From a virus, in the IMG/VR virus record IMGVR_UViG_3300028891_000138, positions 1-21,626 of that record: 21,626 bases of DNA; one strand, written 5' to 3'. Made by a program: the position numbers and the translations under genes. Positions 550 to 18,076 of the stretch are shown piece after piece (position 1 is the first letter of the stretch; every line of letters begins with the position of its first letter). The notes under the pieces were generated by a model that saw nothing but the letters and a program-made list of their open reading frames with translations, searched no databases and was not told where the DNA came from.

Positions 550-996
550 TTGCCTTGTAAAATCTGCGAGCACCCAAAGGGCGACTATTACACACGTTTA
601 GTCCTGCTTGGAAGAATGACACTTGCAGAGGCAGCTGCCAAGCTTGGCGTATCAGACAAGATGCTTTGGTACCACATCAAGAACCACGTGAAAGCTGAGC
701 CAGAAGAGCTGCCTGACGACTTGCAGGAGTGTCTCCAATACATGCTCGACAAGCTCAAAGTCAAGTTCAGGGAGCTCATGCTTCTTCCCACAGACCACAC
801 TTCAATCAGGTCGATAGCGGCTCTCGTAAAGGAGATGCGTGGCTTGATAATGGACTTGGCCAAACTCCAGAAGAAGATTTCGACTGCGCCTTCTGTTAAT
901 GTCACAGTTATGACCAAGTTAGAGACTGGCATACTGACTCTCCTCTGCCCTGAGTGCAAACAGAAAGTCTTGTCTTACCTGGAGGCTGAGTCATGA
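550..996 (+). CDS. Small terminase subunit-like DNA-binding protein
   Basis: Probable small terminase (148 residues from TTG 550), which would recognise the packaging site and load the large subunit. The N-terminus holds a CKIC-HP motif followed by a helix-turn-helix (AEAAAKLGVSDKMLWYHIKN, about residues 25-45), an arrangement common in small terminases. The middle is helical and a CPEC pair lies near the C-terminus, so a zinc-binding role is possible. The start is uncertain: TTG 550 puts the CxxC motif at the very N-terminus, but GGAGG abuts it with no spacer. The alternative GTG at 382 would add 56 residues encoded by the heptamer repeat and looks wrong. It overlaps the large terminase by four bases (ATGA), as expected for the pair. 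Confidence 0.72.
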   Translation: MPCKICEHPKGDYYTRLVLLGRMTLAEAAAKLGVSDKMLWYHIKNHVKAEPEELPDDLQECLQYMLDKLKVKFRELMLLPTDHTSIRSIAALVKEMRGLIMDLAKLQKKISTAPSVNVTVMTKLETGILTLLCPECKQKVLSYLEAES

Positions 997-2393
997 ACTG
1001 GGAGACGGCTTCTCCAAAAGAGAGGCTACGTGAAATCTTGAAAGCCCAACTCGACCCACTCTACTTCCAAAAGCCACACTTCCTCAACATCGAGTTGTTT
1101 CCTGTCTCGAAGAAAATTGTCACAGACTTCTACAATGGAGACTACAACGAGCTTGTCTTAGTGGCTGGGATGAGAAGTGGCAAGACGACTCTCCTCAGCT
1201 TCTTCGCAGCTTACGAAACGTTTCTGTACTTGACTCAAGACTACATTGCAAAGTACGGCCTTGCAAGAGGCACTCCAGTCTTTGGTTTGTTGGCCGCAGC
1301 CAAAGAAGAACAAGCCAAAGACACTGTCTTGGCTTCTTTCAAAGCACGCCTCCACAACAGCCCCTTCTTCGAGTGGTTCGGCTACTTGGAGCGAAGCGAC
1401 TACATCTTCTTCCCTGAGAAGAACTTTATGGTGAGGGCTGTCTCCTCTTCCAGCGCCACAGAGGTTGGCCGTACAGCCAAGTTCGTCTGCATAGACGAGA
1501 TGTCGAGGCTTGAAGAAACTGAAGGCCCAAGAGGTGGCCTCGAAGTTTATCGAGCCCTAACTAAGGCCACCAGAACATTCAAAGAAGAGGGTCACAGGTT
1601 CATCGTTGGCTCGCCTCGCCACACAGCTGACATCTTGATGAAGCTGTTTCGAAACGCCAGTTCCAAGACACTCACAGTTAAATACGCTACATGGGAGATG
1701 AACCCCAACATTTCGTTTGACGACTTGAAAGATGAGTTTGAGAGGGACCCGCTTGGTGCCTGGCGTGACTATGGCGCCGACCCTCAGGTGACAGTTCAAG
1801 TCTACTTCAGAGACCCCAGTCTGCTCAGAATGGAAGACTCTCCAAACATAATCGAGATGATTAGAGACGGCATTCCAGTTGAGCCTGAGCCTGTCGACTA
1901 TGTCTTGGCAGGCGACCCTGCTCTCAAACACGATGCGTTTGGGCTCTGCGTGGCTCACATGGAAGACGATGTGTTTATCGTCGATGGTGTGGCTCAAATC
2001 AAGCCAGAGAAAGAAATCAATCCATACGAGATTAAGGAGCTCATCTTGAAGATTGTCGAGACGCTTGGCATCAAGCACGTCGTCTTCGATACTTGGCACT
2101 TCGCTGAGCTTCAAAAAGAACTTGAAATCAGAGGAGTGCACGTTTACAACCATATTGTACGCCGGCCAGACTACGACCGCCTTAAAGAGTACCTGTACAA
2201 CAAGAAGGCTGTTCTCATCGAGCATCCAGTTTTGAGGAGAGAGCTTGAGCAGCTTATCATAAAGCCTTCGGGTAAGATTGACCATCCAAGAGGAGGCTCG
2301 AAAGACGTTGCCGATGCAGTTGTGAATGCATTGTGGCTGGCAACCTCCATCCCCAAAGAGAGGGTTTGTTTTGGTTTGGTGAGAGGTGTGTAG
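993..2393 (+). CDS. terL: Terminase large subunit (packaging ATPase-nuclease)
   Basis: Motor that pumps DNA into the procapsid and cuts concatemers. In 466 residues it has a Walker A motif GMRSGKT (about 59-65), a Walker B FVCIDEM (164-170, D168 and E169), and a C-terminal RNase H-like nuclease with acidic positions in AGDPA (D308), VFDTWH (D366) and SKDVADAV (D438, D441). Length and motif order match complete large terminases of tailed viruses. The ATG overlaps the stop of the small terminase and has a GGAGG about seven bases upstream. The portal follows directly, the usual packaging order. A 348-codon open frame on the opposite strand is a shadow of this gene. Confidence 0.96.
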   Translation: MNWETASPKERLREILKAQLDPLYFQKPHFLNIELFPVSKKIVTDFYNGDYNELVLVAGMRSGKTTLLSFFAAYETFLYLTQDYIAKYGLARGTPVFGLLAAAKEEQAKDTVLASFKARLHNSPFFEWFGYLERSDYIFFPEKNFMVRAVSSSSATEVGRTAKFVCIDEMSRLEETEGPRGGLEVYRALTKATRTFKEEGHRFIVGSPRHTADILMKLFRNASSKTLTVKYATWEMNPNISFDDLKDEFERDPLGAWRDYGADPQVTVQVYFRDPSLLRMEDSPNIIEMIRDGIPVEPEPVDYVLAGDPALKHDAFGLCVAHMEDDVFIVDGVAQIKPEKEINPYEIKELILKIVETLGIKHVVFDTWHFAELQKELEIRGVHVYNHIVRRPDYDRLKEYLYNKKAVLIEHPVLRRELEQLIIKPSGKIDHPRGGSKDVADAVVNALWLATSIPKERVCFGLVRGV

Positions 2394-2394
2394 C

Positions 2395-2586
2395 ATGTCT
2401 GAGAAGAAAGTCAAGTTGGGTGCACCCGTCATCGTGTTTCCAGTGGCTGAGGAACTGCGTTTATTTGCAAGGGATTGGAAGTCAGCTTTCAGACGTGCTC
2501 GGAACAGATATGAGCTGTACAGAGACTTGGTGAGACTCGACCCAGAGTTGTGGGGTGCAGTAAAAATTCCATCCAGACTCGGGTAA
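2395..2586 (+). CDS. Portal protein, N-terminal fragment (frame 1 of split gene)
   Basis: Encodes 63 residues ending at TAA 2586. The helical stretch RARNRYELYRDL followed by DPELWGAV looks like the first helices of a portal protein, which ordinarily continue into a longer chain. The portal body starts two bases later in the +1 frame. That +1 frame is open from 2564, just after a TAA at 2561-2563, so the two frames can only be joined between 2564 and 2586. A run of five A (2562-2566) lies at the start of this interval: after GTA AAA, a +1 slip re-pairs AAA perfectly and continues TTC CAT. The joined chain would be about 383 residues. Whether the shift is programmed, a mutation or a base error cannot be told here. 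A GTG nine bases upstream of the ATG is an alternative start. Confidence 0.6.
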   Translation: MSEKKVKLGAPVIVFPVAEELRLFARDWKSAFRRARNRYELYRDLVRLDPELWGAVKIPSRLG

Positions 2587-2587
2587 G

Positions 2588-3547
2588 ATGGAGACAGACC
2601 CAATTCAAGTCGTCAACTACTATGTCTTGAATGAAGGCTACGACCAGCAGCAAGTCTTCAAGGCGTCTGAGTGCGTCCACTTCAACTGGGGCAGAATAGA
2701 GTTAGTCGATGACATTCTTGGCAGGAGGACGCTTGGAGTCTGGAATGTTTCTCCACTTGAGCCTCTGCGCGCCAAGCTTTTATGGAAGCACGTTATCCTG
2801 TTGAATGACATGCTTTGGAGAAGCGTAAACGTGCCTCGTCGACACCACAAGTTGCCAAGTGAGCCTTTCGACCCAGACAAGTTCAGTGGCAAGACTCGTG
2901 AAGAGCGTCTCGAGAAGGCGAGGGCCGCTGCAGTCAAAGCCTTAGAGGAGTACGCTAGTCAACTCAAACTCCATGAAGTTGAACGTGACTTCATCACGTT
3001 AGACGATGTTGAGATTGAGATTGTCGAGCCGAAATTGAAGTGGACTGACCCGAATGAGCTCCTTCAGCAGATAGACGAGTCGATTTATGCGGCAATTGGC
3101 GTGCCAAGAAGTGCCGTGTCTGGCCTGCGTGGAGGCACATTTGCAACTGAGTTGGTAGTCAGCTCCTACTTCTTCCACAGAGCACGTCACCTCGCACACC
3201 TCATAGGACAGAAGCTGATTGAAGTGGCCATCATGCACCTCGAGTCTAAGATTGGCCTCGACTTCGTCGACTTGTACGACTTGATTTCAGTCGATGTTTA
3301 CACAGAGCTGTTCTTGAGGGAGCAGGCGAGGACTGTTGCGATATTGTCTCAGCTGGGCATCTTCTCGAAGAGCGAGTTGAGGGCCATGCTTGGCTTCTCG
3401 CCTCAAGTGCCAGAAGAGCTGCTTGAAGAGACTCTACACGGAGGCACTGTTCGCAGTCCAGGGCAAATTCTCGCATCGGAGGTTAGGCGTACACAGCCTG
3501 AGCGTCCCGAGACTCCTCAGTCGAAGGAGGCGAGGCAGAAGACATGA
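2588..3547 (+). CDS. Portal protein, main body
   Basis: Portal of the capsid vertex, a ring through which DNA enters and to which the neck attaches. Seen here: SECVHFNWGR (about residues 28-37), like the HF motif before the portal stem; a GVWNVSPLEPLRAK segment; and the helix pair with DESIYAAIGVPRSAVSG (around 158-174) followed by ATELVVSSYFFHRAR, typical of HK97/SPP1-like portals. At 319 residues it lacks the N-terminal helices, which are found in the preceding 63-codon frame. Even when joined, the usual stretch of roughly a hundred residues between the first helices and the HF motif seems short or missing, so an internal deletion is possible. The ATG at 2588 has no good ribosome-binding site, which fits expression by frameshift or a damaged gene. 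Confidence 0.85.
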   Translation: METDPIQVVNYYVLNEGYDQQQVFKASECVHFNWGRIELVDDILGRRTLGVWNVSPLEPLRAKLLWKHVILLNDMLWRSVNVPRRHHKLPSEPFDPDKFSGKTREERLEKARAAAVKALEEYASQLKLHEVERDFITLDDVEIEIVEPKLKWTDPNELLQQIDESIYAAIGVPRSAVSGLRGGTFATELVVSSYFFHRARHLAHLIGQKLIEVAIMHLESKIGLDFVDLYDLISVDVYTELFLREQARTVAILSQLGIFSKSELRAMLGFSPQVPEELLEETLHGGTVRSPGQILASEVRRTQPERPETPQSKEARQKT

Positions 3548-3570
3548 AGTGGCTGGCTATAAGATTGTCT

Positions 3571-3579
3571 ATAGTATAT
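3571..3579 (+). promoter_or_regulatory. Candidate TATA box before the MBL gene
   Basis: ATAGTATAT lies in the 61-base gap between portal and MBL genes and would place a start of transcription near 3602-3605, just before ATG 3609. A GGGTGGTAAG ribosome-binding sequence (3597-3606) is also present, so the start does not depend on this promoter. Confidence 0.35.
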
Positions 3580-3608
3580 CCCTCCAGCGTCCATGTGGGT
3601 GGTAAGCC

Positions 3609-4700
3609 ATGAAGCTTACATTTCTTGGCACGAAAGGCGACATCGAAGAGTCTGAGTGGAACCACGAGAAGAACGCCTCGCTTCTCATCGAATACAAGAA
3701 GAAGCGATACTTGATTGACTTTGGCAAAGCTTTTACAAGAGGTGACTTTCAACGTATCAAGCCTGACTACATCTTGCTCACTCACGCCCATGAAGACCAT
3801 ATCGGTGGGCTTGCCAAGCTCAAGCCTGAAGACTTGAAGGATGTCATCGTCCACTGCTCCAAGACTTGCTGGGAAGGCCCTCAAGACGTCAAAGAGCCAT
3901 ACAAGGCCAAAGACATTGAGGCTCTCCAGTCTGCCAAGGTACACTTATTCGACCGTATCTTGAAGAAGCGACACAAGATGGGCGACATCTACTACGTTCC
4001 TGTTCCTTGCTGGCACAGCGTTAAAGCCCCTGCAAACGTGTTTGTCTTGTACGTGGGCGGCAAGAAGATAGTCTATGCACCTGACGTCCTCCACATCAAC
4101 AAGCAAGAGATAGTTCACTTGAGAGACGCTGACCTCTACATCGGCGATGGCTCTTCCCTCGACAGAGACCTTGTGCGTAAACCCAAGAACTACAAGTATC
4201 CTCAAGTAAGAGTTGGTCACGCAAGCATCAAAACTCAGCTTCGTTGGCTTCAAGACCTTGGCATTAAGCAGGCAATCTTCACTCACTTTGGCTCATGGGC
4301 TTTGAAGATGCGCGAGCAAGAATTACGTTCTAAGCTTCTCAAGCTTGGCAAAGAGTATGGAGTTAAGGTCTGGGCTGCTCAAGATGGCACTACAGTTACA
4401 TTCGAGGATGACAAGCCAGTTGTGAGGCTCGAAGCCTTGACTCTTCCAGGCATCTACTTGGTTCCTCCTCACGGTCAACTCATTGCAGAAGGCAAGAAGA
4501 CGCTCATCGTCAAATCCAAGAAATTCATGAAGTATGTTGGACGGCCTCTCTACCTCGTCAGTGGCGACAAAGTCTATGGCATCATCGTCTTGAAGCCGCC
4601 TCGAGGCCCATACGACGCTGACCGTATCCGCACTGCCATGAGAGACAAACACCAGATATCTGACGACTCGACATCGAGACTTTCGACCCATCTGAGTTGA
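3609..4700 (+). CDS. Metallo-beta-lactamase-fold hydrolase with ASCH-like C-terminus
   Basis: Probable metal-dependent hydrolase, likely acting on nucleic acid given its partner gene. Residues 1-265 are an MBL fold: THAHEDHIGG carries the HxHxDH motif (H59, H61, D63, H64), with further candidate ligands H136 (PCWHS), D159 (YAPDV) and H226 (FTHFG). All the metal-binding positions of an active enzyme seem present. Residues about 278-330 (PGIYLVPPHGQLIAEGKKTL through YGIIVL) resemble an ASCH domain, a fold often linked to RNA or nucleotide binding. The last 15 residues look unrelated to either. The +2 frame is open there from 4664 and reads DIETFDPSELNDEQLVHYW, which suggests the ligase or a MBL-ligase fusion once extended upstream. 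Its stop overlaps the ligase TTG start (TTGA). Fold confident; substrate unknown. Confidence 0.82.
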   Translation: MKLTFLGTKGDIEESEWNHEKNASLLIEYKKKRYLIDFGKAFTRGDFQRIKPDYILLTHAHEDHIGGLAKLKPEDLKDVIVHCSKTCWEGPQDVKEPYKAKDIEALQSAKVHLFDRILKKRHKMGDIYYVPVPCWHSVKAPANVFVLYVGGKKIVYAPDVLHINKQEIVHLRDADLYIGDGSSLDRDLVRKPKNYKYPQVRVGHASIKTQLRWLQDLGIKQAIFTHFGSWALKMREQELRSKLLKLGKEYGVKVWAAQDGTTVTFEDDKPVVRLEALTLPGIYLVPPHGQLIAEGKKTLIVKSKKFMKYVGRPLYLVSGDKVYGIIVLKPPRGPYDADRIRTAMRDKHQISDDSTSRLSTHLS

Positions 4701-7636
4701 ACGATGAGCAGCTGGTTCACTACTGGGCTAAATGCGCTGCCTGGCTCAACAAGGCCAAGGAAGGCCATCTCAAGTGGAGTGTCGACGAGGTTCTTCAGAT
4801 TGCATACAAGGTTTATCGTGAGATGATAGGCCGTGGCATCCACCCATCTCCAGACACGCCTCTCTACAAAGCCTTGTCGAAGAAGTTCCACCTGGAAAGA
4901 GACTTGGATTTGGCTCCTGTACACTCGTTTAGACCTGAGTCAGAAAAGGGCGAGCCAATCAAGCTTGACGATGTGCTTCCACTGTTCAAGCCATTCTACT
5001 TGAAGAGGCCGTTCATACTGCTTGTTGGAGGCCTCGTCGAGCATGGAGAGACGAGAGGCGACATCGATGTCTTGATACTGTTTCCACAGCGTATTCCACA
5101 GAGAGACGTGCCACTTGAGTTCAGGCTCGGCCGCATGCTCCCAGCAGAACTTTCAAGCAGACTACACTTCTTGTATGGCGATTATGGTGGCCCATTCACA
5201 GACTACGTTGAGCTGTACGACTTGCTTGTCATTCCATCGAAGTATAGACGCAAAGTCGACATGGAAGACTTGCTTGGCTTCTTGGAAACACACTACCACC
5301 TGAGTAAAGAGATGCCAGAGGAAGCCAAGAGAGCTGCTCTCGTCACTCGAGAGGAAGACAAGATTAAGCTCTTCAGGTTCTTCTTGTTTGCGAAGCCACA
5401 GATTGGTCACAGGCCTGGCGTAGCCTACTCATTAGACGAGCTCAAGCTTCTCGTCGACGAGTTTCCAGTTCACGTCGAGAAGAAGTACGATGGTGTCGTC
5501 TTGCAAATTCACAAGGATGGCAAGAAAGTGAAGGTCTTCACTGAGAGAGGATTCGACGTTACAAAGCGTCTGCCAGGCCTTGTCGAGGAAATTCAGTCTT
5601 GGAAGTATCCTGAGAAGTGCATTCTGCTTGCTGACACAGAGAAATGGACTAAGAGTGGCGAATACATCGGCAGAGAAGAAGTGGCAGCCTACCTCATGGC
5701 TAAGACGCCTCCAGACGACACGGGCATCGTTGCCAACGTGTTTGACATCGTTTACTTCTTTGACCCAGACCTTGTCAAGCATGACTTGAATTGTCAGATA
5801 GGCGACTTGCACCATGAGCCATACAGCGTTCGAAGACGATACTTGGAGCTGTTGCCAATCAAGCAGTCTGTCATCGATGCTCCCTCAATTGACACTCACT
5901 TCAACGTTGCTCCTTCATGGGTTGCCAATGATGCAGACGAGATGATTAAACTTGTCAAGAAAGTCTCCAAAGCCAAGGCATCTGAGGGTGCCGTCATCAA
6001 GTATGCAGGCTCTGAGTATCCTCTGACTGGCGCTTGCTATCACTGGTGGAAGTACAAGAAAGTAGCTACTGCCCACGCCATCATCCTCGAAGTGCATCCA
6101 ACTAAGAAGAAGGGCATCTATCGATACACGATTGGCTTCAAGATTCCCAAGGGCTGGGAAGCAGCTGAAACCTTCAAGCTGGGCGATGAAGAGTACATGG
6201 TTGCTGGCAAGACTATGAACTACAAGGGAAAGCTTAAGCCTGGCACCATTGTCGAGGTTGTGTTTGAAGAGCTGTTCTACTACTTTGACGAGAAGACTGG
6301 CAAGAAGCAAGTCAGGGTTTACCTTTGCCAGATTGTGGGTGTGCGTCCAGAGCAGAATGTGCCAGACACTGCCGAGGAAGTTATGTTAATTGCAAACCAA
6401 GTCGGTGTTCTTCGCCGTAAGACAGTTGAGCTCGAAGAAATCGAAGAAGAGGACATCTTGATTAGGCCAGTGGACGACAAGCCTCGTCAATTCGTCTTGC
6501 AGATACATTGGCGAGGCAAGGGAGCGCATGGAGACCTTCGTTGGGAGCGTGTGCCTGGAGGCAGGATTCTCGATGGCTTCACAATCGCTCTCATGAAGAA
6601 GGGCGTGGCCAAAGAAGACGTCGAAACTCTCGAGCAAGCCAAGAAGCTGTCTGTCTGGGAGAACATGAAGATTAAGCCCGACCCGTCTCCAGTCAGAGTG
6701 TTTGCAGCTGAGAAAGCTCCCGAGCCAAGAGAGTGGCTGACATACGAAGGCGTTGTGCCTCCAGGCTCTGTTGGAGCCACTCGATACGAGCCAGGTGTCT
6801 TCTACATCTTCGATAAAGGCAAGCTGTACCTTGGAGTTCAGTTTCCATGGTTTAGAGAGCTCTTCATCGAAGGCAAGGAGCTCAAGGGCAGGTGGGTTCT
6901 ACGTCTCATTCCGAGGAGAAAGCCTGCCACGGCCAAGACAGCCTTCCTCTGGCTATTCGGCAAGCCTAAAGACCAGACACCATACGTGCTTAGCAGACGT
7001 GCAGTCAAGAAGAGGTTTGTGCCTCCACAAGGCGTGTCTCTACTGCCTCCAGACATCAAGAAGAAAATCCCAAAAGAGTTCCAGTACTGGAGATTCAAAG
7101 ACGAAGAGAAGCGTCTCGAAGTCAGAGATGCTCTTGTCGAGGCAATCAAGAAGGGCAGAGTCAGGCTGTCTTCGTTTGTCGTTAAGCCAGTCGAAAACGT
7201 TCCATTCGTACTGCAGAGACACTGGTGGGTTAAGAGGCCTCTCATCAGAGCTGGGCCCACAGCCATTCACTGGGACTTACGCATCGAGAATGTAAAGGAA
7301 GGCCCTTACCTGCACTTCGTCTGCTACGACGACCCACTTGAAAACGAGTCTCTGGCAGCCTACTTGAAGCCCTGCCCAGACCACGAGTGGATGAAGAAAG
7401 GCCTCAAGAAGGCAGAGACCATTCCTCCTGGTACTCCTGGAAATCCAACCAAAGACACGCCTGCTTACATCTTAGTCACCGACAAAGGCAAGTGCTCCAT
7501 CATCACCGCTTCTGACACATTTCTGCGAATTCAGTTCCACAGCGGCAAGATGAAGGGGCTTTGGACTGCTATCCGCGAAGACCCCAATTCCGACATTTGG
7601 CTTCTGTCCAGAGCCGAAATGCCTCAACCGAAGTGA
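4697..7636 (+). CDS. ATP-dependent DNA ligase with NTase-like domain and two LigD-type phosphoesterase domains
   Basis: Large DNA end-processing and joining protein (979 residues). In order: an N-terminal region with a nucleotidyltransferase-like signature LLVGGLVEHGETRGDIDVLI (108-127); an ATP-dependent ligase core with motif I KYDG (K263 the adenylated lysine), motif III region ILLADTE (309-315), FDIVYFF (349-355), motif IV EGAVIK (430-435) and motif V WWKYKK (450-455); an OB-like domain to about 555; a first 3'-phosphoesterase domain (about 597-742; H604, H611, D613, R615, with YEGVVPPGSVGA at 683-694); and a second (about 836-975; H842, H858, D860, R862). LigD normally has one such domain plus a primase-polymerase, absent here. 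The TTG start overlaps the MBL stop and lacks a ribosome-binding site, implying translational coupling. Domain calls are strong except the NTase, which is tentative; the biological role is unknown. Confidence 0.88.
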   Translation: MNDEQLVHYWAKCAAWLNKAKEGHLKWSVDEVLQIAYKVYREMIGRGIHPSPDTPLYKALSKKFHLERDLDLAPVHSFRPESEKGEPIKLDDVLPLFKPFYLKRPFILLVGGLVEHGETRGDIDVLILFPQRIPQRDVPLEFRLGRMLPAELSSRLHFLYGDYGGPFTDYVELYDLLVIPSKYRRKVDMEDLLGFLETHYHLSKEMPEEAKRAALVTREEDKIKLFRFFLFAKPQIGHRPGVAYSLDELKLLVDEFPVHVEKKYDGVVLQIHKDGKKVKVFTERGFDVTKRLPGLVEEIQSWKYPEKCILLADTEKWTKSGEYIGREEVAAYLMAKTPPDDTGIVANVFDIVYFFDPDLVKHDLNCQIGDLHHEPYSVRRRYLELLPIKQSVIDAPSIDTHFNVAPSWVANDADEMIKLVKKVSKAKASEGAVIKYAGSEYPLTGACYHWWKYKKVATAHAIILEVHPTKKKGIYRYTIGFKIPKGWEAAETFKLGDEEYMVAGKTMNYKGKLKPGTIVEVVFEELFYYFDEKTGKKQVRVYLCQIVGVRPEQNVPDTAEEVMLIANQVGVLRRKTVELEEIEEEDILIRPVDDKPRQFVLQIHWRGKGAHGDLRWERVPGGRILDGFTIALMKKGVAKEDVETLEQAKKLSVWENMKIKPDPSPVRVFAAEKAPEPREWLTYEGVVPPGSVGATRYEPGVFYIFDKGKLYLGVQFPWFRELFIEGKELKGRWVLRLIPRRKPATAKTAFLWLFGKPKDQTPYVLSRRAVKKRFVPPQGVSLLPPDIKKKIPKEFQYWRFKDEEKRLEVRDALVEAIKKGRVRLSSFVVKPVENVPFVLQRHWWVKRPLIRAGPTAIHWDLRIENVKEGPYLHFVCYDDPLENESLAAYLKPCPDHEWMKKGLKKAETIPPGTPGNPTKDTPAYILVTDKGKCSIITASDTFLRIQFHSGKMKGLWTAIREDPNSDIWLLSRAEMPQPK

Positions 7637-7692: not shown

Positions 7693-7715
7693 TTTGCCTT
7701 AAAGAAAAGTAATTG

Positions 7716-8765
7716 ATGTACAAAGCAACCTTTGAGTCACCGCTACTTTGGAAGAAGCTGGGGCCAATCTTAAGGGTAGAGGGAGTTCTCCTCTCAGAAG
7801 GTACTTTCACTGGCCTCGAAGGGAAACCAGTGCATTTCTCGGCTGACGTCCTGCAGAAATACGGCGAGACATTTCTCGGCAAGCCCATCGTGTATCCACA
7901 CACCATAGACGAGGGAGACGAGAAGCAGCTTGCCTGTGGCTTCATTTCGGAAGTTGCTTTCGATGGTGGCTCACTGCTCTTCTCTGGCTATGTCTATGAC
8001 CCCAAAGTCTGCGAGCTGATTGAAACAGGCAAACTCGATGCGTTTTCTGCAGAGGTTGAGATTGAGGAGAGGTTCTGCCCTGAGTCTGGCTGGTTCGAGG
8101 CAGAAAGGCTACGTGGCACCGCCGTAGCCCTGACCTCGAATCCAGCCTGCCCAGAGTGTCGCCTCTTAGGCGCGACACCTGTGCAGCTGGAAAGCGGTGC
8201 GTCAGAAGAGGAAGAGGAGGTGGAGAAAGTGAGTGAGGAGACCACGGCTTCGGCTGTGGTCACTCAAGCGGAGGTAGGCACTTACCCACTGCCGAGGCCC
8301 ACTGTGGTTTCAGTGGCTGCTGTCGACTACGCTTTGAAGCAGATGGGCCTTTCTGACGCAGACATACAGAAGTTCTGGGATGTGATATCGGAGAAGTATC
8401 CGTATCCGTATCCCACTCCGACTGCCACTGGCGAGGCAAGCGAGGCCTCCGAGGAGCTTCAGAAGGAGCTCGAGAACCTCAGGAAAGAGCGTGACGAGCT
8501 CCTCAAGAAGTACAATTCTATACTTGAGGCTCGCAAGGAGGCCTACATTGCTGAGATAAAGAAGCTCGACAAGAAGTTCGACGCTACGAAGCTGCTTGAG
8601 GGCGTTGACGACATTGAGATGCAGCTGAAGATGCTGGAGAGCTACCTGGAGAGCCTCAAGCGCATAACGCCTGCTAAGCTTGAGCTCTCCCCAGAGAAGA
8701 GCGTCGAGCAGCAAGTTAAGAAAGTTGTCGAGGAGCTGTTTGGACCTGGGTTTGTGGAGGTGTGA
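7716..8765 (+). CDS. Prohead protease fused to scaffold
   Basis: Capsid maturation protease joined to the scaffold that shapes the procapsid (349 residues). Residues 1-155 look like an XkdF/Mu-I-type serine protease domain, with a histidine in YPHTIDEG (H62), a GFISEVAF strand (about 75-82) and a serine in DAFSAEVEIEE (S111) that I propose as catalytic. A CPECR pair lies near 145. An acidic linker (SEEEEEVEKVSEE) and a YPYPYP hinge lead to a charged coiled coil (about 240-330), the scaffold part. Fusions of this type sit directly before the capsid gene, as here. ATG 7716 is preferred over the adjacent TTG 7713 because it fits the leaderless promoter. The exact protease family is not certain. 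Confidence 0.78.
   Translation: MYKATFESPLLWKKLGPILRVEGVLLSEGTFTGLEGKPVHFSADVLQKYGETFLGKPIVYPHTIDEGDEKQLACGFISEVAFDGGSLLFSGYVYDPKVCELIETGKLDAFSAEVEIEERFCPESGWFEAERLRGTAVALTSNPACPECRLLGATPVQLESGASEEEEEVEKVSEETTASAVVTQAEVGTYPLPRPTVVSVAAVDYALKQMGLSDADIQKFWDVISEKYPYPYPTPTATGEASEASEELQKELENLRKERDELLKKYNSILEARKEAYIAEIKKLDKKFDATKLLEGVDDIEMQLKMLESYLESLKRITPAKLELSPEKSVEQQVKKVVEELFGPGFVEV
8396..8413 (+). repeat. Triplicated GTATCC hexamer
   Basis: Three perfect GTATCC copies encode the YPYPYP hinge of the protease-scaffold protein. It looks like slippage expansion within a linker. Confidence 0.7.
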
Positions 8766-8770
8766 TGTGA

Positions 8771-9274
8771 ATGGCGATAGTACATCTTCCAGGCACAATG
8801 GTTTCGTTCAAGTGCACCGATGCTCTTGACGAGAAGGGCTACGTCCTTGCTCTCGCCAACGATGGTACAGTACACAAGTGTGCAGCCGACGAGCGCCCGT
8901 TTGGTGTCGCTTTCAAGGACACCAAGAACCCGATAACCGAGGTTGCCGAGGCTAACAGGAATGTGCCTGTCGTACTGCACGGCGTGGCATACGTGCAGTA
9001 TGAGATAGGCGTTGGAGAAGACATTAAGCCTGGCGACTGGGTTGGCATGAAGGGCGCCCACTCTGCTGGCCGTGTCACCAAGTTCGTCGAGGGTGACACA
9101 ACGACTGCTTGGCCAGACACATACGATGCTGCCACAGCTGAGACAATAACCGACGAGATAATCGGCGTCGTAAGAGAGTACGACCTGGTGGTTGGCGTTG
9201 CCCTCGAGGCTGTGGATGCGCCTGCTGAGGGCACCAAGACTGGCCTCCTCAAGGTTCTGTTGGTGAGGCTGTAA
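8771..9274 (+). CDS. Capsid decoration-like protein (DUF2190-like)
   Basis: Small beta-rich protein (167 residues) that likely binds the outside of the capsid and stabilises it. Features shared with the DUF2190/decoration group: an N-terminal DALDEKGYVLALANDGTV segment, RPFGVAF, a central VPVVLHGVAYVQ strand, IKPGDWVGM, and a C-terminal strand ending KVLLVRL. The place between protease-scaffold and major capsid genes is the usual one. A GGAGGTG ribosome-binding site (8756-8762) precedes ATG 8771 and overlaps the end of the previous gene. Family assignment is by pattern only. Confidence 0.72.
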   Translation: MAIVHLPGTMVSFKCTDALDEKGYVLALANDGTVHKCAADERPFGVAFKDTKNPITEVAEANRNVPVVLHGVAYVQYEIGVGEDIKPGDWVGMKGAHSAGRVTKFVEGDTTTAWPDTYDAATAETITDEIIGVVREYDLVVGVALEAVDAPAEGTKTGLLKVLLVRL

Positions 9275-10158
9275 TGAACCTCCAGGAGATAGTTGAGAAG
9301 ATAAAGCTGCAGGTGGCCACTGAAAGCGACGTAATAAAGAGAGAGGTCATCAGAGAAGTCATCTACAAGAAAGTCGAGGAAATGCTAGTGTGGGGCAAGG
9401 TTGTCCCGACGGTCGAGCTGAGGCAGCCTGACATACGCTATGAGTTCCCGAGCAAGATTGACGTTGCTGGGCCTATAGCTCCTGAGACTGAGGCTCCGCC
9501 TGAGCTAGTCACTTGGAGCCACGTCGACGTGTCGCTGTACGACAAGTATGAGGGACGCTTTGTCATCACTGACATGGCCAGGCTGCGCCAGCTCGATAAG
9601 GAGCAGTACAGGGCTGGCGTGAGGAGACTGGCCGAGGCTATGGCTAAGGCTGAGGACGCTGAGATACAGGCGGCCATCGAGGCGGCTGCTGGAAACACGA
9701 TAGCTGCCACGGCTGCCTGGAACGCTGCTGGTGCCGACCCTGCTGCAGACATGATAAACGCTCTGCAGAAAGTGTTGGCTGCTGAGGACGTCACCATAGA
9801 CGACATGAAGAACGTTGCCTTCGTAATGCCAGTCAACTGCTACACAGTGATAATGAAGCTCCAGGACATAGCCAACATACGTACTAGCCTGCTTGAGTGG
9901 ATGCAGGATACGTATGGCGTCAAGTTCTATCCAACCAAGACGCTGACAGACACGATGTACTGCCTCGTCGCTGGTGAGGAGACTGCAAGGCACTTCGTCC
10001 TCAGGCCAGAGGGCATACCTCTGGTTGAGGAGCGCAGGATACCTGGCGTGGGTCAGGAGTACATCATAAGAAGGTTCTTCAAGACTTGGGTGGTGCCTGA
10101 CTCCGCTGACGTGACCACGTCGAGCAGAATCTGTAAGGTGACGGGTGTCTGGGCGTAA
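9274..10158 (+). CDS. Major capsid protein, HK97 fold
   Basis: Main shell protein (294 residues). The N-terminal helix (about 1-40) leads to a segment rich in P and E typical of the E-loop region, then VTWSHVDVSLYDKYEGRF, an alanine-rich helix (RRLAEAMAKAEDAEIQAA, about 116-134) matching the spine helix, and a C-terminal P-domain with FVMPVNCYTVIMK and GVKFYPTK. This is the layout of HK97-fold capsid proteins that lack a long cleaved delta domain. ATG 9274 overlaps the decoration stop (TAATG), with GGTGAGG upstream. Isoleucine is mostly ATA, unlike the ligase gene. Confidence 0.87.
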   Translation: MNLQEIVEKIKLQVATESDVIKREVIREVIYKKVEEMLVWGKVVPTVELRQPDIRYEFPSKIDVAGPIAPETEAPPELVTWSHVDVSLYDKYEGRFVITDMARLRQLDKEQYRAGVRRLAEAMAKAEDAEIQAAIEAAAGNTIAATAAWNAAGADPAADMINALQKVLAAEDVTIDDMKNVAFVMPVNCYTVIMKLQDIANIRTSLLEWMQDTYGVKFYPTKTLTDTMYCLVAGEETARHFVLRPEGIPLVEERRIPGVGQEYIIRRFFKTWVVPDSADVTTSSRICKVTGVWA

Positions 10159-13300: not shown

Positions 13301-15135
13301 TCAACATTATCCTTCGTTGGAGAGAAGAGCTGGTCGACGCCTATGAGCGGGTTAAACGTAGAATGCAGGAGCTCTCTGCTGTACGCTATGTTCCTGCCAA
13401 GAGAGCATATGACGAGCTTAAGAAGCATCTCTGGGAGCTGCACGAGGCTTATGCTGAAGGTGCCATAACTGCCAAAGACTTTGTCCAGAGAAGCACCGAG
13501 ACTCGTAGAAAGCTTGAAACCATTGCTCCTGTCGTGAGAGGCATTGAAGGCGAGTTCAGAGAAGTGGGCCGCCGTGTCAGCTCTGTAGGCCGCTTCTTCA
13601 TACGCTTGTCTTGGCAAATGGGTGTTGTCGGATGGATTTTCACATTCCACATGAAACGTATGGTAACATTCGCGAGGCAATGGTACACGAGGCTTAGGAC
13701 TTTCGTCAAGAGAGTCGTACGCATCTTCGTTGGCTTCCTCAAGAAAGTGGCTGAGTTTCCAAAGAGCCTCCAGAGTGCAGCTGAGGCTCTTGGTTGGCTT
13801 CAAGTAACAGGTATGCTGTCTTCTGTGGCTATGCAAGAATTGTCTTCTATAATGGCAGGCCTCGTACAGCTTGGACCACAGGTAAAAGCACTGTTCGAGG
13901 CTTGGCAAGCAACTTTACTTGCAGTCGCCCTTGCCATCGCTGAGGGACTTCAGCCATACATTCAAAGCCTCGTAAACATTCTGTTTGAATTGGCCTCTTC
14001 TCCTGTGTTAGACTGGCTCTCAGACCTCGTGGGAGCCATTGCAGGAGCAGTTGTGCCTGCACTACAGCAGTTTGTAAGCAACTTGTCTGGCCTTGTAGAG
14101 GCACTCCCACCAATAGAGCAACTTTCGCAGAGCTTCCAGAGACTGGCAGAGACAATCTTTAGTGCAGCCTCTTCATTCATCGAAGCCTTCTTGCCTGTCA
14201 TTCCAAGCATCATTGACGTCTTGACGAGTTTAGCTGAGACGCTTAGAGAACATGTGGCAGAGCTTGCTCCTGCATTCGCCGAAGCCTTCGAGCATGTTGG
14301 AGGCGCTCTCGAGGCTATCATTCCAGTCTTGCCTGAAATCACGACCACACTCGCAACATTCACTGAGATGTGTGCCAAACTCTTCTCAGTCTTGTATGAC
14401 ATGTTGGGGCCACAGATACTATCCATTATGCTGGCATTTAACATGCTGGGGCCAGTCATAACTGCTGTTGCCTCGTCAGTCGATGCTCTTGGCTCAGTGT
14501 TAATGAACCTGCCGCAAATCGTTGAAGGAGTCAGCTATGGCTTCCAGATTCTTGGCAGTGTGTTTAACTTCTTAGCAGCTAATCCGATAGTTTTGGTCAT
14601 AGCGGCAATCGCTGCTGTTATTGCAATCCTCGTCCGGCTGTACCAAACAAATGAACAGTTTAGAAACTTTGTCAACTCTTGTTGGAACGCAATCCAGAAT
14701 GCAGTCTCTGTGGCCGTCACAGGCATCATTACTTCTCTCCAAGGAGCACTCAACTGGCTTCAGCAACTCATCGACATGATAAACAAAGTCAAAGAGGGCT
14801 TCAAGAAGGTTCTCGACTGGCTTAAAGAGAATATTTGCTTTGCCCACATTATAGGAGACTCTGTGTCTCAGGCCATCAGACACCTCAACAATCTTCACGC
14901 CACCACTCACAAGACTGTCCAGGTCATCAGAAGAGAGCTTCGAGGCGTTTCTATGCCAGCAGGCAGAGTTGAGTTTGCTGCTCCTGAGAGAAGAATGGCT
15001 GCCCCACGTTACACTCCCATCAACATCAACATGACATTTGAAAATATCACGTTGAGTGAAGAGCTTGACTTTGAGAGGTTCATTGATGAAGTGTCGAGTC
15101 GAGTCGCGTCTGCTGTGAGAGGTGTCTCTGCATGA
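13285..15135 (+). CDS. Tape measure protein
   Basis: Encodes 616 residues that set tail length and are ejected into the host with the DNA. It is largely helical with long charged and coiled stretches near the N-terminus, hydrophobic stretches mid-protein (for example WQATLLAVALAIAEGLQPYI) and NPIVLVIAAIAAVIAILVRL near residue 430-450, a likely membrane-inserting segment. This composition and its place after the chaperone pair identify it. By the usual rule of about 1.5 angstrom per residue the tail would be near 90 nm. ATG 13285 is preferred over GTG 13276 because GAGGTGG (13274-13280) lies at good spacing before it. Confidence 0.88.
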   Translation: MAEAVINIILRWREELVDAYERVKRRMQELSAVRYVPAKRAYDELKKHLWELHEAYAEGAITAKDFVQRSTETRRKLETIAPVVRGIEGEFREVGRRVSSVGRFFIRLSWQMGVVGWIFTFHMKRMVTFARQWYTRLRTFVKRVVRIFVGFLKKVAEFPKSLQSAAEALGWLQVTGMLSSVAMQELSSIMAGLVQLGPQVKALFEAWQATLLAVALAIAEGLQPYIQSLVNILFELASSPVLDWLSDLVGAIAGAVVPALQQFVSNLSGLVEALPPIEQLSQSFQRLAETIFSAASSFIEAFLPVIPSIIDVLTSLAETLREHVAELAPAFAEAFEHVGGALEAIIPVLPEITTTLATFTEMCAKLFSVLYDMLGPQILSIMLAFNMLGPVITAVASSVDALGSVLMNLPQIVEGVSYGFQILGSVFNFLAANPIVLVIAAIAAVIAILVRLYQTNEQFRNFVNSCWNAIQNAVSVAVTGIITSLQGALNWLQQLIDMINKVKEGFKKVLDWLKENICFAHIIGDSVSQAIRHLNNLHATTHKTVQVIRRELRGVSMPAGRVEFAAPERRMAAPRYTPININMTFENITLSEELDFERFIDEVSSRVASAVRGVSA

Positions 15136-16082
15136 GGTTTAGAGGTGCTCCCTACAGATGGATTGGCAAGCTCACGAATGCGAGAGTTGACGTTGACGTT
15201 CCAGATGCTGTTTACAGTGCATTTACTTTTGCTGGCTGGCTTCGAGGAACAAACTACGGAACTTTGTGTGCATTAGACTCTGATGGAAGCGCTGGTTCAG
15301 GCCTTGGTGTGAGAAGCGATGGCAAGCCCGAAGCTCAGCTCACAGACCAAGGCACAGTCAAGACAAGCATTGTTGGAAACGTTAGCGTGCTCGACGATGC
15401 TTGGCACTTCCTTGCCTTCACGTTTGACGGTTCTGTGTTGAAGTTGTTTGTAGATGGAGTGCTGGCCGCTTCACAAGACTATTCATACAGCGTGGTAGGC
15501 ACCTCATCTATTTGGAGAATTGGTGCTGGTACAGGCTCTCACTGGGGCAACCTCAACGACAAGGTTGCGGAGTGCATCTTCTTCGACCACGCTCTAAGCG
15601 ACAGTGAAGTGGAGGGTCTCTTCAAGTCGCCTCACAGCCCTCCTTCAGGAGCAGTGGCCTACGTCAGGTTCATCAAAGGAGAAGGCACTCCAGACGACGT
15701 CTCTGGCAACCCTGTTTCATACACTGGCACACTTGAGTGGCTATACGAGCCATTCACGTCTGGCAAGATAGTTGACATGCCTTGGGAGCCTAAGAGTGTG
15801 ACTAAGACTGTTAGCCGCAAGATGCAGGCCACGCCCATCTTCCAGGCCTATCCACTCTTGGTCAACATAGGTGTCGACAAGCTTGTTTACAGACTTGAGT
15901 ACGTCTTGGATGACGACACGATTGTTTCTGACTTGGAGACACTTGTTGAGCTTGACTCTGAGCAGCCACTGTGGGTCGATGGAGTCATTAAGGGCTTCTA
16001 TTATTGCCAGAGGTTTGACTATGTTAAGAAGCCGCCCAAGTATTATGTTTGTAGATTAGATTTGTGGCAGGTGAAAGTATGA
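15132..16082 (+). CDS. Distal tail-like protein with LamG domain
   Basis: Encodes 316 residues. Residues about 16-207 are a LamG/concanavalin-type sandwich: FTFAGWLRG, DDAWHFLAFTFDG, LKLFVDGVLAA and the closing FFDHALSDSEVEGLF are its standard strands. Residues about 211-316 form a separate beta-rich domain (MPWEPKSVTKTVSRKM, LVNIGVDKLVYRLEYV). The position between tape measure and tail hub is that of a distal tail protein, so the C-terminal domain is likely the structural part and LamG an added sugar-binding module. That role is inference. ATG overlaps the tape measure stop (ATGA), and the next gene starts the same way. Confidence 0.72.
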   Translation: MRFRGAPYRWIGKLTNARVDVDVPDAVYSAFTFAGWLRGTNYGTLCALDSDGSAGSGLGVRSDGKPEAQLTDQGTVKTSIVGNVSVLDDAWHFLAFTFDGSVLKLFVDGVLAASQDYSYSVVGTSSIWRIGAGTGSHWGNLNDKVAECIFFDHALSDSEVEGLFKSPHSPPSGAVAYVRFIKGEGTPDDVSGNPVSYTGTLEWLYEPFTSGKIVDMPWEPKSVTKTVSRKMQATPIFQAYPLLVNIGVDKLVYRLEYVLDDDTIVSDLETLVELDSEQPLWVDGVIKGFYYCQRFDYVKKPPKYYVCRLDLWQVKV

Positions 16083-18076
16083 CAGCCTCTATCGTTATAG
16101 ACGGCAAGGAACATCGCTTTACAATCAAGTCTGCAAAATACGTTGACGGCGTGTTGAAAGTTGAGGGCTATACAGACTTGCAAGTCTTCAAGCAACTCTC
16201 ACTTGGCAAGGAAGTCGAGCTTAAACTTGAAGGCAAACATCTGCAGAACCTTTACGTTGCTTATATGGACGTAGTCTCGAAGAAGACAGTGTTATGGGCC
16301 AAAGCCAAGAAGCTGGCAGGACTTCTATACGTAGACTCTTCCACCACTCCGCCCAAACTTAAATTCGAGAAGACAGACGCTGCTGACGCAATTGTCTCTG
16401 ACATCCTTTCAGGAACAGGCTTTTCAATTGGCTCGTGCCCATCCGACACCATCACCGTTGAATTCGACAACGACAATAAGATGTCAGCCCTTCAGAAGAT
16501 AGCTGACAGACTCGACGCAACGCTTTACTTCGATGACGATAAGCTCTACATCATCCAGTCAGGCCAAGACAAAGGCACAGTCTCCTGCGTTGTGGCAAAG
16601 ATAGAAAACGATGTCGAGACAGTCATCAACCGTGTCCACGCATACAGCAAGAAATGGGAGTACAAATGCATTGGCAATATCTGCCACCCCACACTACAGT
16701 CAGTGTACGTTTGTGTCGAAGACTCAGACAGCATCAGCAAATGGGGTGCAAGAGAACATCTCTTGAAAATCCCACTTGTCGGAAGCGAGACAGAGCTACA
16801 ACAGATAGCAAACGCTATCATACAAGAATACAAAGAACCTGCCAAAACATGTGAACTCATGATTAACCACAACGTTTACATGTCCAAGCTTTTGAAGCCA
16901 CTTGACACCATCTCCTTCAACTTTGAAGGAAACACATACACACTAAAAGTATCTGACATAGAGATTCGAGAATCTTACGTTAAACTTGTTGCGGGCTCCA
17001 AGAAAACGAGCATAGAAGACCTGATAAAAGAAATCCAGCAGAGACAACGTAGAACCAGGCCCTTCGAAGACGGCGAAGGCAAGCCGAGGTATCCATGCCT
17101 GACAGAAGACGGCTTCCTAAAAGCCTCAGCCATAGCCGAGCCTGGTGTGGGCCTGAGACCCGTACTCAGCTTTGACGGAGTGGACGACTTTGTGGAGCTT
17201 TCCCAAGGCTTCTACGACCCCTATAATGTCACATTCATGGCGTGGGTTCGACAAGAAAGTGAGAAGGCTGGCAAAGCACATATCGGAGGCGACTGGCTTA
17301 GCGACCCCGACAATCGGGGCTTCGACATTCTCTTCGTTGACTCCAGCTTTCTCCGAGTTGAGTTGAAGACTGGCTACTTTGATACGCCTGGTGGTTCTGT
17401 TACTTGGGGCAAGTGGCACCACATAGCCATAAGGTACTCCTCCGCTGAGCTTGGAAAGATTGAAGCATTCATTGATGGCAAGTTAGTTGCGTCTCACGAT
17501 TACACCGACGCGGTAAGCACCCAATCGCATCCTTTCTGCTTAGGCAAGAGAGGAGCGGGAGGCGATTACTGGAATGGCGTTATCGTAGGAGTGCTGTTCT
17601 ACAACAGAGCCCTTTCCGAAGATGAGATTCAGTGGAACTACCTGCATCCAGACAACCCTGTCAGAGACGGACTCGTCTTGTGGCTGAAGCTGGACGAAGG
17701 CGAGGGGACAAAAGTGTTTGACTACTCCGGCCAGAACAACGACGGCACAGTAAACGGTGCTACATGGACGCATGGCCATGTTCCTGTTGGCTTAGACTAT
17801 CCCACAAAAGTTGCTCCTCCAAGGCTGTTGCCTGGAATTCCAGCTGAGAAGGCTGACCCAGACTTTGGAACTACCGGCGATAGAATTTATGTCACCACTG
17901 ACACAATGTTTGAAACATCATCGACGTCATATGTTAAAGTGTGGGAAGTCGTGGCTGAAGCTGTCGACGACGTGAAAAACGCTATTACTAAGGTGGCCGC
18001 GTCCATTCGAGTGGGACCTGAGGGCGGAGGTGGGAGTAGTGCGCCACCTGGGTCTGAAAACTACTGTGCAATTTGA
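16079..18076 (+). CDS. Tail hub (Tal-like) protein with LamG domain
   Basis: Encodes 665 residues. The first ~325 look like a tail hub: an N-terminal sandwich (KEHRFTIKSAKYVDGVLKV), a helix-and-strand part with MSALQKIADRLDATLYFDDD, a motif widely seen in gp27/Tal-like hubs, and a final LLKPLDTISFNFEGNTYTL barrel strand. Residues about 362-565 are a LamG domain (LSFDGVDDFVELS, WGKWHHIAIRY, IEAFIDGKLVASHDY, GLVLWLKLDEGEG). About 100 C-terminal residues end in a glycine-serine-proline tail and may anchor further tail parts. ATG 16079 has AGGTGA five bases upstream and overlaps the previous stop. No endopeptidase motif is seen. Confidence 0.78.
   Translation: MTASIVIDGKEHRFTIKSAKYVDGVLKVEGYTDLQVFKQLSLGKEVELKLEGKHLQNLYVAYMDVVSKKTVLWAKAKKLAGLLYVDSSTTPPKLKFEKTDAADAIVSDILSGTGFSIGSCPSDTITVEFDNDNKMSALQKIADRLDATLYFDDDKLYIIQSGQDKGTVSCVVAKIENDVETVINRVHAYSKKWEYKCIGNICHPTLQSVYVCVEDSDSISKWGAREHLLKIPLVGSETELQQIANAIIQEYKEPAKTCELMINHNVYMSKLLKPLDTISFNFEGNTYTLKVSDIEIRESYVKLVAGSKKTSIEDLIKEIQQRQRRTRPFEDGEGKPRYPCLTEDGFLKASAIAEPGVGLRPVLSFDGVDDFVELSQGFYDPYNVTFMAWVRQESEKAGKAHIGGDWLSDPDNRGFDILFVDSSFLRVELKTGYFDTPGGSVTWGKWHHIAIRYSSAELGKIEAFIDGKLVASHDYTDAVSTQSHPFCLGKRGAGGDYWNGVIVGVLFYNRALSEDEIQWNYLHPDNPVRDGLVLWLKLDEGEGTKVFDYSGQNNDGTVNGATWTHGHVPVGLDYPTKVAPPRLLPGIPAEKADPDFGTTGDRIYVTTDTMFETSSTSYVKVWEVVAEAVDDVKNAITKVAASIRVGPEGGGGSSAPPGSENYCAI

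Follow-up and report, generated by a model that had tools for sequence, protein, structure and literature searches.

We analysed a linear virus record of 21,626 nt, IMGVR_UViG_3300028891_000138 (the window; its coordinates are used throughout), in which two overlapping genes encode a metallo-beta-lactamase (MBL) fold hydrolase with an ASCH-like tail and a 979-residue protein. The latter joins, in this order, an N-terminal module (NT1), a nucleotidyltransferase (NTase), an ATP-dependent DNA ligase with its OB-fold region, a LigD-type phosphoesterase (PE1), a linker domain and a second phosphoesterase copy (PE2). Judging from sequence evidence, we propose that the two genes specify a DNA end-healing and end-sealing machine that would be built into the prohead of a tailed, probably archaeal virus and would act at packaging or right after ejection, a proposal to which we give an even chance of being correct. 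Such a machine would be a LigD-like toolkit in which an NTase replaces the primase-polymerase and which is welded to virion-assembly proteins. The original prediction, made from the letters of this DNA alone, had described the gene pair and suggested a late role in repairing or sealing DNA ends, or an anti-defence function; its observations were confirmed and its interpretation is partly supported.

Relatives and fusions with head genes

A single-sequence scan of viral contigs returned no relatives; a two-sequence profile then recovered the family. Profile scans yielded 18 IMG/VR loci and then 7 more (25 in all; single loci are cited by L-number), and a profile scan of contigs from metagenome-assembled genomes (MAGs) added five loci labelled Methanosarcinales, Methanophagales and Omnitrophota. 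The sole relative among GenBank phages is ANMV-1, a virus of methane-seep sediment with anaerobic methanotrophic (ANME) archaea as proposed hosts (KP703175). Searched alone, the MBL protein matched no GenBank phage, and the window ligase matched no plasmid.

The predicted pairing of the MBL and ligase genes was borne out by fusions. In L026 and L027 the MBL, ASCH-like, NT1, NTase, ligase, OB and PE1 parts form a single chain of ~1360 aa, whose MBL part matches that of the window with E-values of 1e-39 to 1e-41, and in L032 one chain holds all of these parts but PE1. These fusions indicate that the two genes of the window encode one functional unit. L005, L011, L017, L020, L023, L026, L027 and L032 have the ASCH-like module close to the N-terminal end of their NTase/ligase protein. 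In six further loci the module sits at the C-terminal end of the portal protein (L006, with the portal assigned by PHROG, and L009, L010, L018, L022 and L025, with the portal assigned by homology). Moreover, an XkdF-type prohead protease (Peptidase_S78_2) ends the ligase open reading frame (ORF) in L011, L012, L008, L028 and L013 (E 5e-36 to 3e-17); all five records exceed the Pfam cut-off and, L011 and L012 being near copies, they represent ~4 independent cases.

Where the flanks are present, a portal gene 5' and a protease and/or capsid gene 3' of the ligase is the usual order across different portal types; in ANMV-1 the portal (Phage_portal_3) is directly 5' of the ligase, with terminase and protease elsewhere. 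The placement between portal and protease genes that had been described for the window therefore stands as a feature of the family, although the portal gene of the window itself is damaged and portal-like by profile only. Given the portal and protease fusions, prohead assembly with action at packaging or after ejection would be the simplest reading, and of the roles originally suggested it is the late one, in packaging or end repair, that appears better supported through these fusions.

The slot between portal and ligase holds an SNase in L006, and a LigT-type (LigT/2H) phosphoesterase and a D12 methylase in L011, where a C5 methylase is also fused to the ligase. In L003 the ligase is fused to DUF6884, a YaaA-related family with one member among DNA lesion interactors (PMC11701544). 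The end- and lesion-related domains among these (SNase, LigT/2H phosphoesterase, DUF6884) lend support to an end-repair function. Genes for QueC, a Vut_1-family protein (a possible queuosine-precursor transporter) and a radical SAM protein lie between a MuF-like gene and the ligase in L005 (4035-6346), and a radical SAM gene occupies the slot in L008 (72-752); they possibly serve 7-deazaguanine DNA modification. We rejected 7-deazaguanine insertion as the main function, as such genes occur in two relatives only.

Domains of the two proteins

Both genes were found where they had been predicted, at 3609-4700 (363 aa) and 4697-7636 (979 aa), the second with a TTG start and a 4-base overlap with the first. 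Across 50 shuffled versions of the window, stop-free runs reached 228 codons at most, so the 979-aa ORF is not a product of chance.

The MBL protein matched Pfam Lactamase_B_2 (E 4.5e-18) and carries the ligand set of an MBL-fold hydrolase, namely the HxHxDH motif (H59/H61/D63/H64) followed by H136, D159 and a last His, H226, all kept in the four aligned homologues (4/4). It also scored to RNase Z/PhnP models. The 54-residue tail (280-333) had no Pfam match at the sequence level, and for this reason we call it ASCH-like; in profile-profile comparison with genuine ASCH domains it reached 89% (E 2e-6, 46 columns), with controls at 0.2-0.5%, in agreement with the earlier assignment.

The expected ligase motifs were all recovered in the 979-residue protein, which matched DNA_ligase_A_M (E 2.4e-16) and displays motifs I-V of an ATP-dependent DNA ligase, from the KxDG lysine (K263-Y-D-G) through E315, F349DIVYF and S429EGA to K452YKK. 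In a 16-row alignment K263, D265, G266, E430, G431, K435 and K452 are invariant. In L018 a stretch of ~2.1 kb with two ORFs (7797-9919) splits the adenylation domain of the ligase gene. No Pfam family matched NT1 above the cut-off.

Between NT1 and the ligase lies the signature G111G..G117ETRGDID124V, in which the D-x-D pair is invariant in 26 of 26 rows. The profile of this domain reached 74% against NTP_transf_2, and a structure prediction of residues 64-245 (mean predicted local distance difference test score, pLDDT, 73.8, with much of the core >90) had minimal nucleotidyltransferases as its best PDB matches, HI0073 (1no5, Z 6.2, 3.1 A over 72 residues) and MNT (8xeo, Z 5.9); unrelated folds scored Z 3.8 and less. 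Since the Foldseek E-values of the model were weak (0.1 and above), we base the fold assignment on motif, profile and structure combined, which together constitute moderate evidence for an NTase of the Pol-beta superfamily. The Pol X profile reached 57% over 43 columns only, and no Pfam match to a Pol X thumb domain was detected in the window protein.

The LigD_N hidden Markov models (HMMs) alone gave weak matches to PE1 (E 0.03 and 0.001) and none to PE2; we therefore relied on profile-profile comparison with controls and on a structure model. When compared with LigD PE profiles derived from archaeal members of PF13298, PE1 reached 96.5% and PE2 97.3%, with off-target controls below 1%, in concordance with the two LigD-type domains and the H/H/D/R residues originally noted. 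In the model of residues 575-979 (pLDDT 83) the sole structures above Z 5 were LigD phosphoesterases, which cover PE1 (archaeal PE 3p43, Z 15.4, 2.1 A, 123 residues). The VIA and Foldseek matches of this model likewise cover PE1 only, and the missing PE2 rows were not counted against PE2. The PE1 and PE2 HMMs match each other in relatives, which makes the doubling real, and L019 and L020 carry a third copy.

In the LigD phosphoesterase, H42/H48/D50 bind Mn and R52/H84/Y88 bind phosphate (PMC8656161). The Mn triad and the R52 equivalent are present in PE1, where they are kept in 20 of 21 rows, and in PE2 of the window; across the family the PE2 metal set survives in three rows (window, L003, L017) and is lost in the other 18. 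The duplication that had been noticed is thus genuine, but its second copy is mostly degenerate, and two active phosphoesterases would for this reason be at most a lineage-specific state. In most members PE2 may serve as a structural or DNA-binding copy, but it may be active in the window virus. PE1 itself lacks a His84 equivalent. The linker domain, which ranks among the better conserved regions of these proteins, matched no Pfam family above the cut-off. In L013 (10700-11900) an insertion of ~260 residues separates PE1 from it.

Comparison with known systems

The ATP-dependent DNA ligase of ANMV-1 (AJP62006.1) belongs to the same family (30% identity over 93%) and shows the same order of NTase, ligase, OB, PE1, linker and PE2, with a portal gene directly 5'. 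Unlike the window, it has no NT1, its PE2 has lost the metal ligands and no adjoining MBL gene was found. This copy is annotated as a DNA ligase only, and the word "ligase" is absent from the main text of the ANMV-1 paper. We found no description of an NTase-ligase-PE architecture linked to head genes in a literature search of incomplete coverage.

With LigD and the archaeal stand-alone LigD-type phosphoesterases the window protein shares an ATP-dependent ligase and a PE with the Mn-binding H-H-D set and Arg. It departs from LigD in its NTase, its duplicated PE, the missing His84, its location among head genes and the fusions of its relatives. The absence of a polymerase and of Ku had been pointed out for the window, and neither the LigD AEP (archaeo-eukaryotic primase) primase-polymerase (PF21686) nor Ku (PF02735) was detected in 19 records, which are mostly fragments and in which a host could supply Ku; the polymerase is not simply missing, as a Pol-beta-superfamily NTase with a putative nucleotide-adding activity is present. 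By its sequence features the window enzyme is LigD-like and not a LigD.

Eukaryotic non-homologous end joining (NHEJ) uses a ligase, an MBL-fold enzyme and an NTase of the Pol-beta superfamily. The LigIV/Artemis/Pol X set therefore resembles the window by analogy, each having these three kinds of enzyme; the likeness is one of parts and not a homology of systems, as the window NTase has no recognised Pol X thumb and the SNM1/beta-CASP type of Artemis is not established for the window MBL. A complex of LigIV with an Artemis fragment has been reported (PMC3664939).

Bacterial genomes offer another parallel for the gene pair. In bacterial clusters a ligase-associated MBL exonuclease is paired with an ATP-dependent DNA ligase, and here too an MBL enzyme adjoins such a ligase; unlike the window, these clusters are cellular and lie outside any head module, and the ligase-associated MBL exonuclease model was not among the 25 NCBIfam matches listed for the window MBL. 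Large eukaryotic viruses, for example African swine fever virus (ASFV), with its PolX and ligase, and Cafeteria roenbergensis virus (CroV), package repair enzymes in their virions. A repair kit carried in the particle is what we propose here as well, but those viruses belong to a different realm and their enzymes are separate proteins.

Proposed mechanism and alternative explanations

The proposed prohead machine would be recruited to the portal or prohead through its ASCH-like module and, in relatives, through the fused prohead protease. The MBL hydrolase, with its active-site residues in place, would trim or open blocked ends, and PE1, equally equipped, would strip 3'-phosphates or 3'-ribonucleotides. 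In the weakest step the NTase, if the moderately supported fold is right, would add nucleotides at gaps or ends. The adenylation and OB domains, with their complete motifs, would then seal the nick or the joined ends with ATP. A precedent exists in phage T4, where the formation of DNA-full heads is impaired without ligase (PMC10893049). More tentatively, and with slightly less than an even chance, we suggest that there is a class of tailed viruses, for the most part probably archaeal, with a single-polypeptide MBL-NTase-ligase-PE machine, tethered to the portal or prohead protease, that repairs the genome inside the capsid or at its gate during packaging or upon ejection. If the enzyme is active, DNA repair in or at the capsid of tailed viruses becomes testable, and little-studied viruses, some linked to methane-oxidising archaea, would provide a compact multi-activity DNA-joining enzyme.

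Several observations weigh against this proposal. At the places of LigD His84 and Tyr88, PE1 has Glu676 and an invariant Trp680, and so lacks these phosphate ligands; with His84 absent and Tyr88 replaced by Trp, its substrate may differ from that of LigD. The third acidic residue of the NTase is lost in some relatives, and the nearest folds are minimal NTases of the toxin-antitoxin type, not template-using polymerases. The protease fusion could reflect translation or dosage coupling instead of packaging, and the slot genes for methylases, QueC and radical SAM proteins could mark a general cargo or anti-restriction hotspot.

A ligase that works inside the cell, repairing or circularising the genome by NHEJ-like joining and merely located in a late operon without being packaged, would account for the LigD-like toolkit, and end-joining enzymes do unite ligase, PE and polymerase (PMC8656161). 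However, neither Ku nor Prim-Pol was found in the 19 records, and this explanation, which we consider unlikely, leaves the prohead protease and ASCH-portal fusions unexplained. The head-gene fusions are equally unaccounted for if the NTase, phosphoesterase and ligase mend tRNAs, of host or virus, that anticodon nucleases have cut; although the minimal-NTase fold, the LigT of L011, the RNase Z/PhnP scores of the MBL and a weak RNA_ligase match in L006 (E 0.004) are in line with RNA repair, the ligase is matched best by DNA_ligase_A_M (E 2e-16 to 4e-20) and PE1 is of the LigD DNA-end type, and we consider this reading improbable.

The methylases of L011, and the QueC, Vut_1 and radical SAM genes of L005 and L008, would fit an anti-defence island whose ligase mends DNA that host restriction or CRISPR nucleases have broken, in a slot for protective modification and repair genes. 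The modification genes occur only sporadically, in contrast to the ever-present ligase, and no targeted defence system is known; this role, improbable as the main one, is compatible with a prohead machine and not exclusive of it. Finally, the damaged portal-like neighbour might suggest a chance insertion or an assembly artefact in this one contig. More than 25 relatives with a shared architecture and neighbourhood, among them the 25 IMG/VR loci, ANMV-1 and archaeal MAG contigs, refute a chance insertion and leave this explanation a negligible probability.

Hosts and head-gene context

The window virus is a tailed virus whose host is probably archaeal. Putative family members, read as not being host ligases, occur in six of the 58 genomes of the class of the Methanophagales genome (G001, G003, G010, G029, G030 and G031). 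Among 193 genomes of the phylum of the Omnitrophota MAG, the PE1-PE2 profile gave one strong case, that same MAG; a head gene on its contig shares 96.5% identity with its counterpart in the viral locus L006, and the contig may be misbinned.

Table 1. Features of the window around the MBL and ligase genes.
Feature	Coordinates	Strand	Basis
Terminase large subunit (TerL)	993..2393	+	phrog terminase E 7e-19
Portal-like gene, two frames	2386..3547 (2386-2586 and 2588-3547)	+	profile comparison
MBL-fold hydrolase (residues 1-265) with ASCH-like tail (residues 280-333)	3609..4700	+	Pfam, profile
ASCH-like module, MBL residues 280-333	4446..4607	+	iterated HMM
NT1-NTase-ligase-OB-PE1-linker-PE2 protein, 979 aa	4697..7636	+	HMMs, profiles, model
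NT1, ~46-residue module kept in most relatives	4703..4840	+	HMM E 9e-20
Minimal nucleotidyltransferase (Pol-beta superfamily, moderate evidence), D122/D124, candidate D175	4955..5233	+	motif, profile, structure
ATP-dependent DNA ligase adenylation domain (K263, E315, K452)	5465..6082	+	Pfam DNA_ligase_A_M E 2.4e-16
Ligase OB-fold region	6107..6376	+	position and family HMM
PE1, LigD-type phosphoesterase, H604/H611/D613/R615	6458..6916	+	profile, model
Conserved linker domain between PE1 and PE2	6953..7153	+	family HMM
PE2, second LigD-type phosphoesterase copy, H842/H858/D860/R862	7211..7612	+	profile
Head maturation protease/scaffold-like gene directly 3' of ligase	7713..8765	+	phrog_530 E 8e-4
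Major capsid protein	9274..10158	+	Phage_capsid_4 E 3e-7; phrog major head protein E 4e-9

The gene directly 3' of the ligase gave a 95% profile match to the genes 3' of the ligase in L006, L009, L010 and L018 and has a counterpart in L026 at 13370-14578. The portal-like gene is interrupted by a stop at 2584-2586 and is ~100 residues shorter than in L026, L027 and L029, as a result of either an assembly error or a real deletion; its larger frame had no Pfam or PHROG match and owes its portal identity to profile comparison alone (80%). In L003 the portal gene (2669-4951) is split by an intein with a LAGLIDADG domain, and the TerL genes of L026 and L003 contain large insertions at about matching positions.

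Connector, tape-measure and tail genes are also encoded in the window. Two adjoining tail proteins, at 15132-16082 and 16064-18076, carry LamG_3 (concanavalin-like) domains (E 8e-17 and 3e-21). Just 5' of the terminase genes, positions 1-345 and 403-459 hold imperfect short tandem repeats rich in T and G (TGTTGAT-like) and a 7-bp CACGTCT repeat in ~8 copies.

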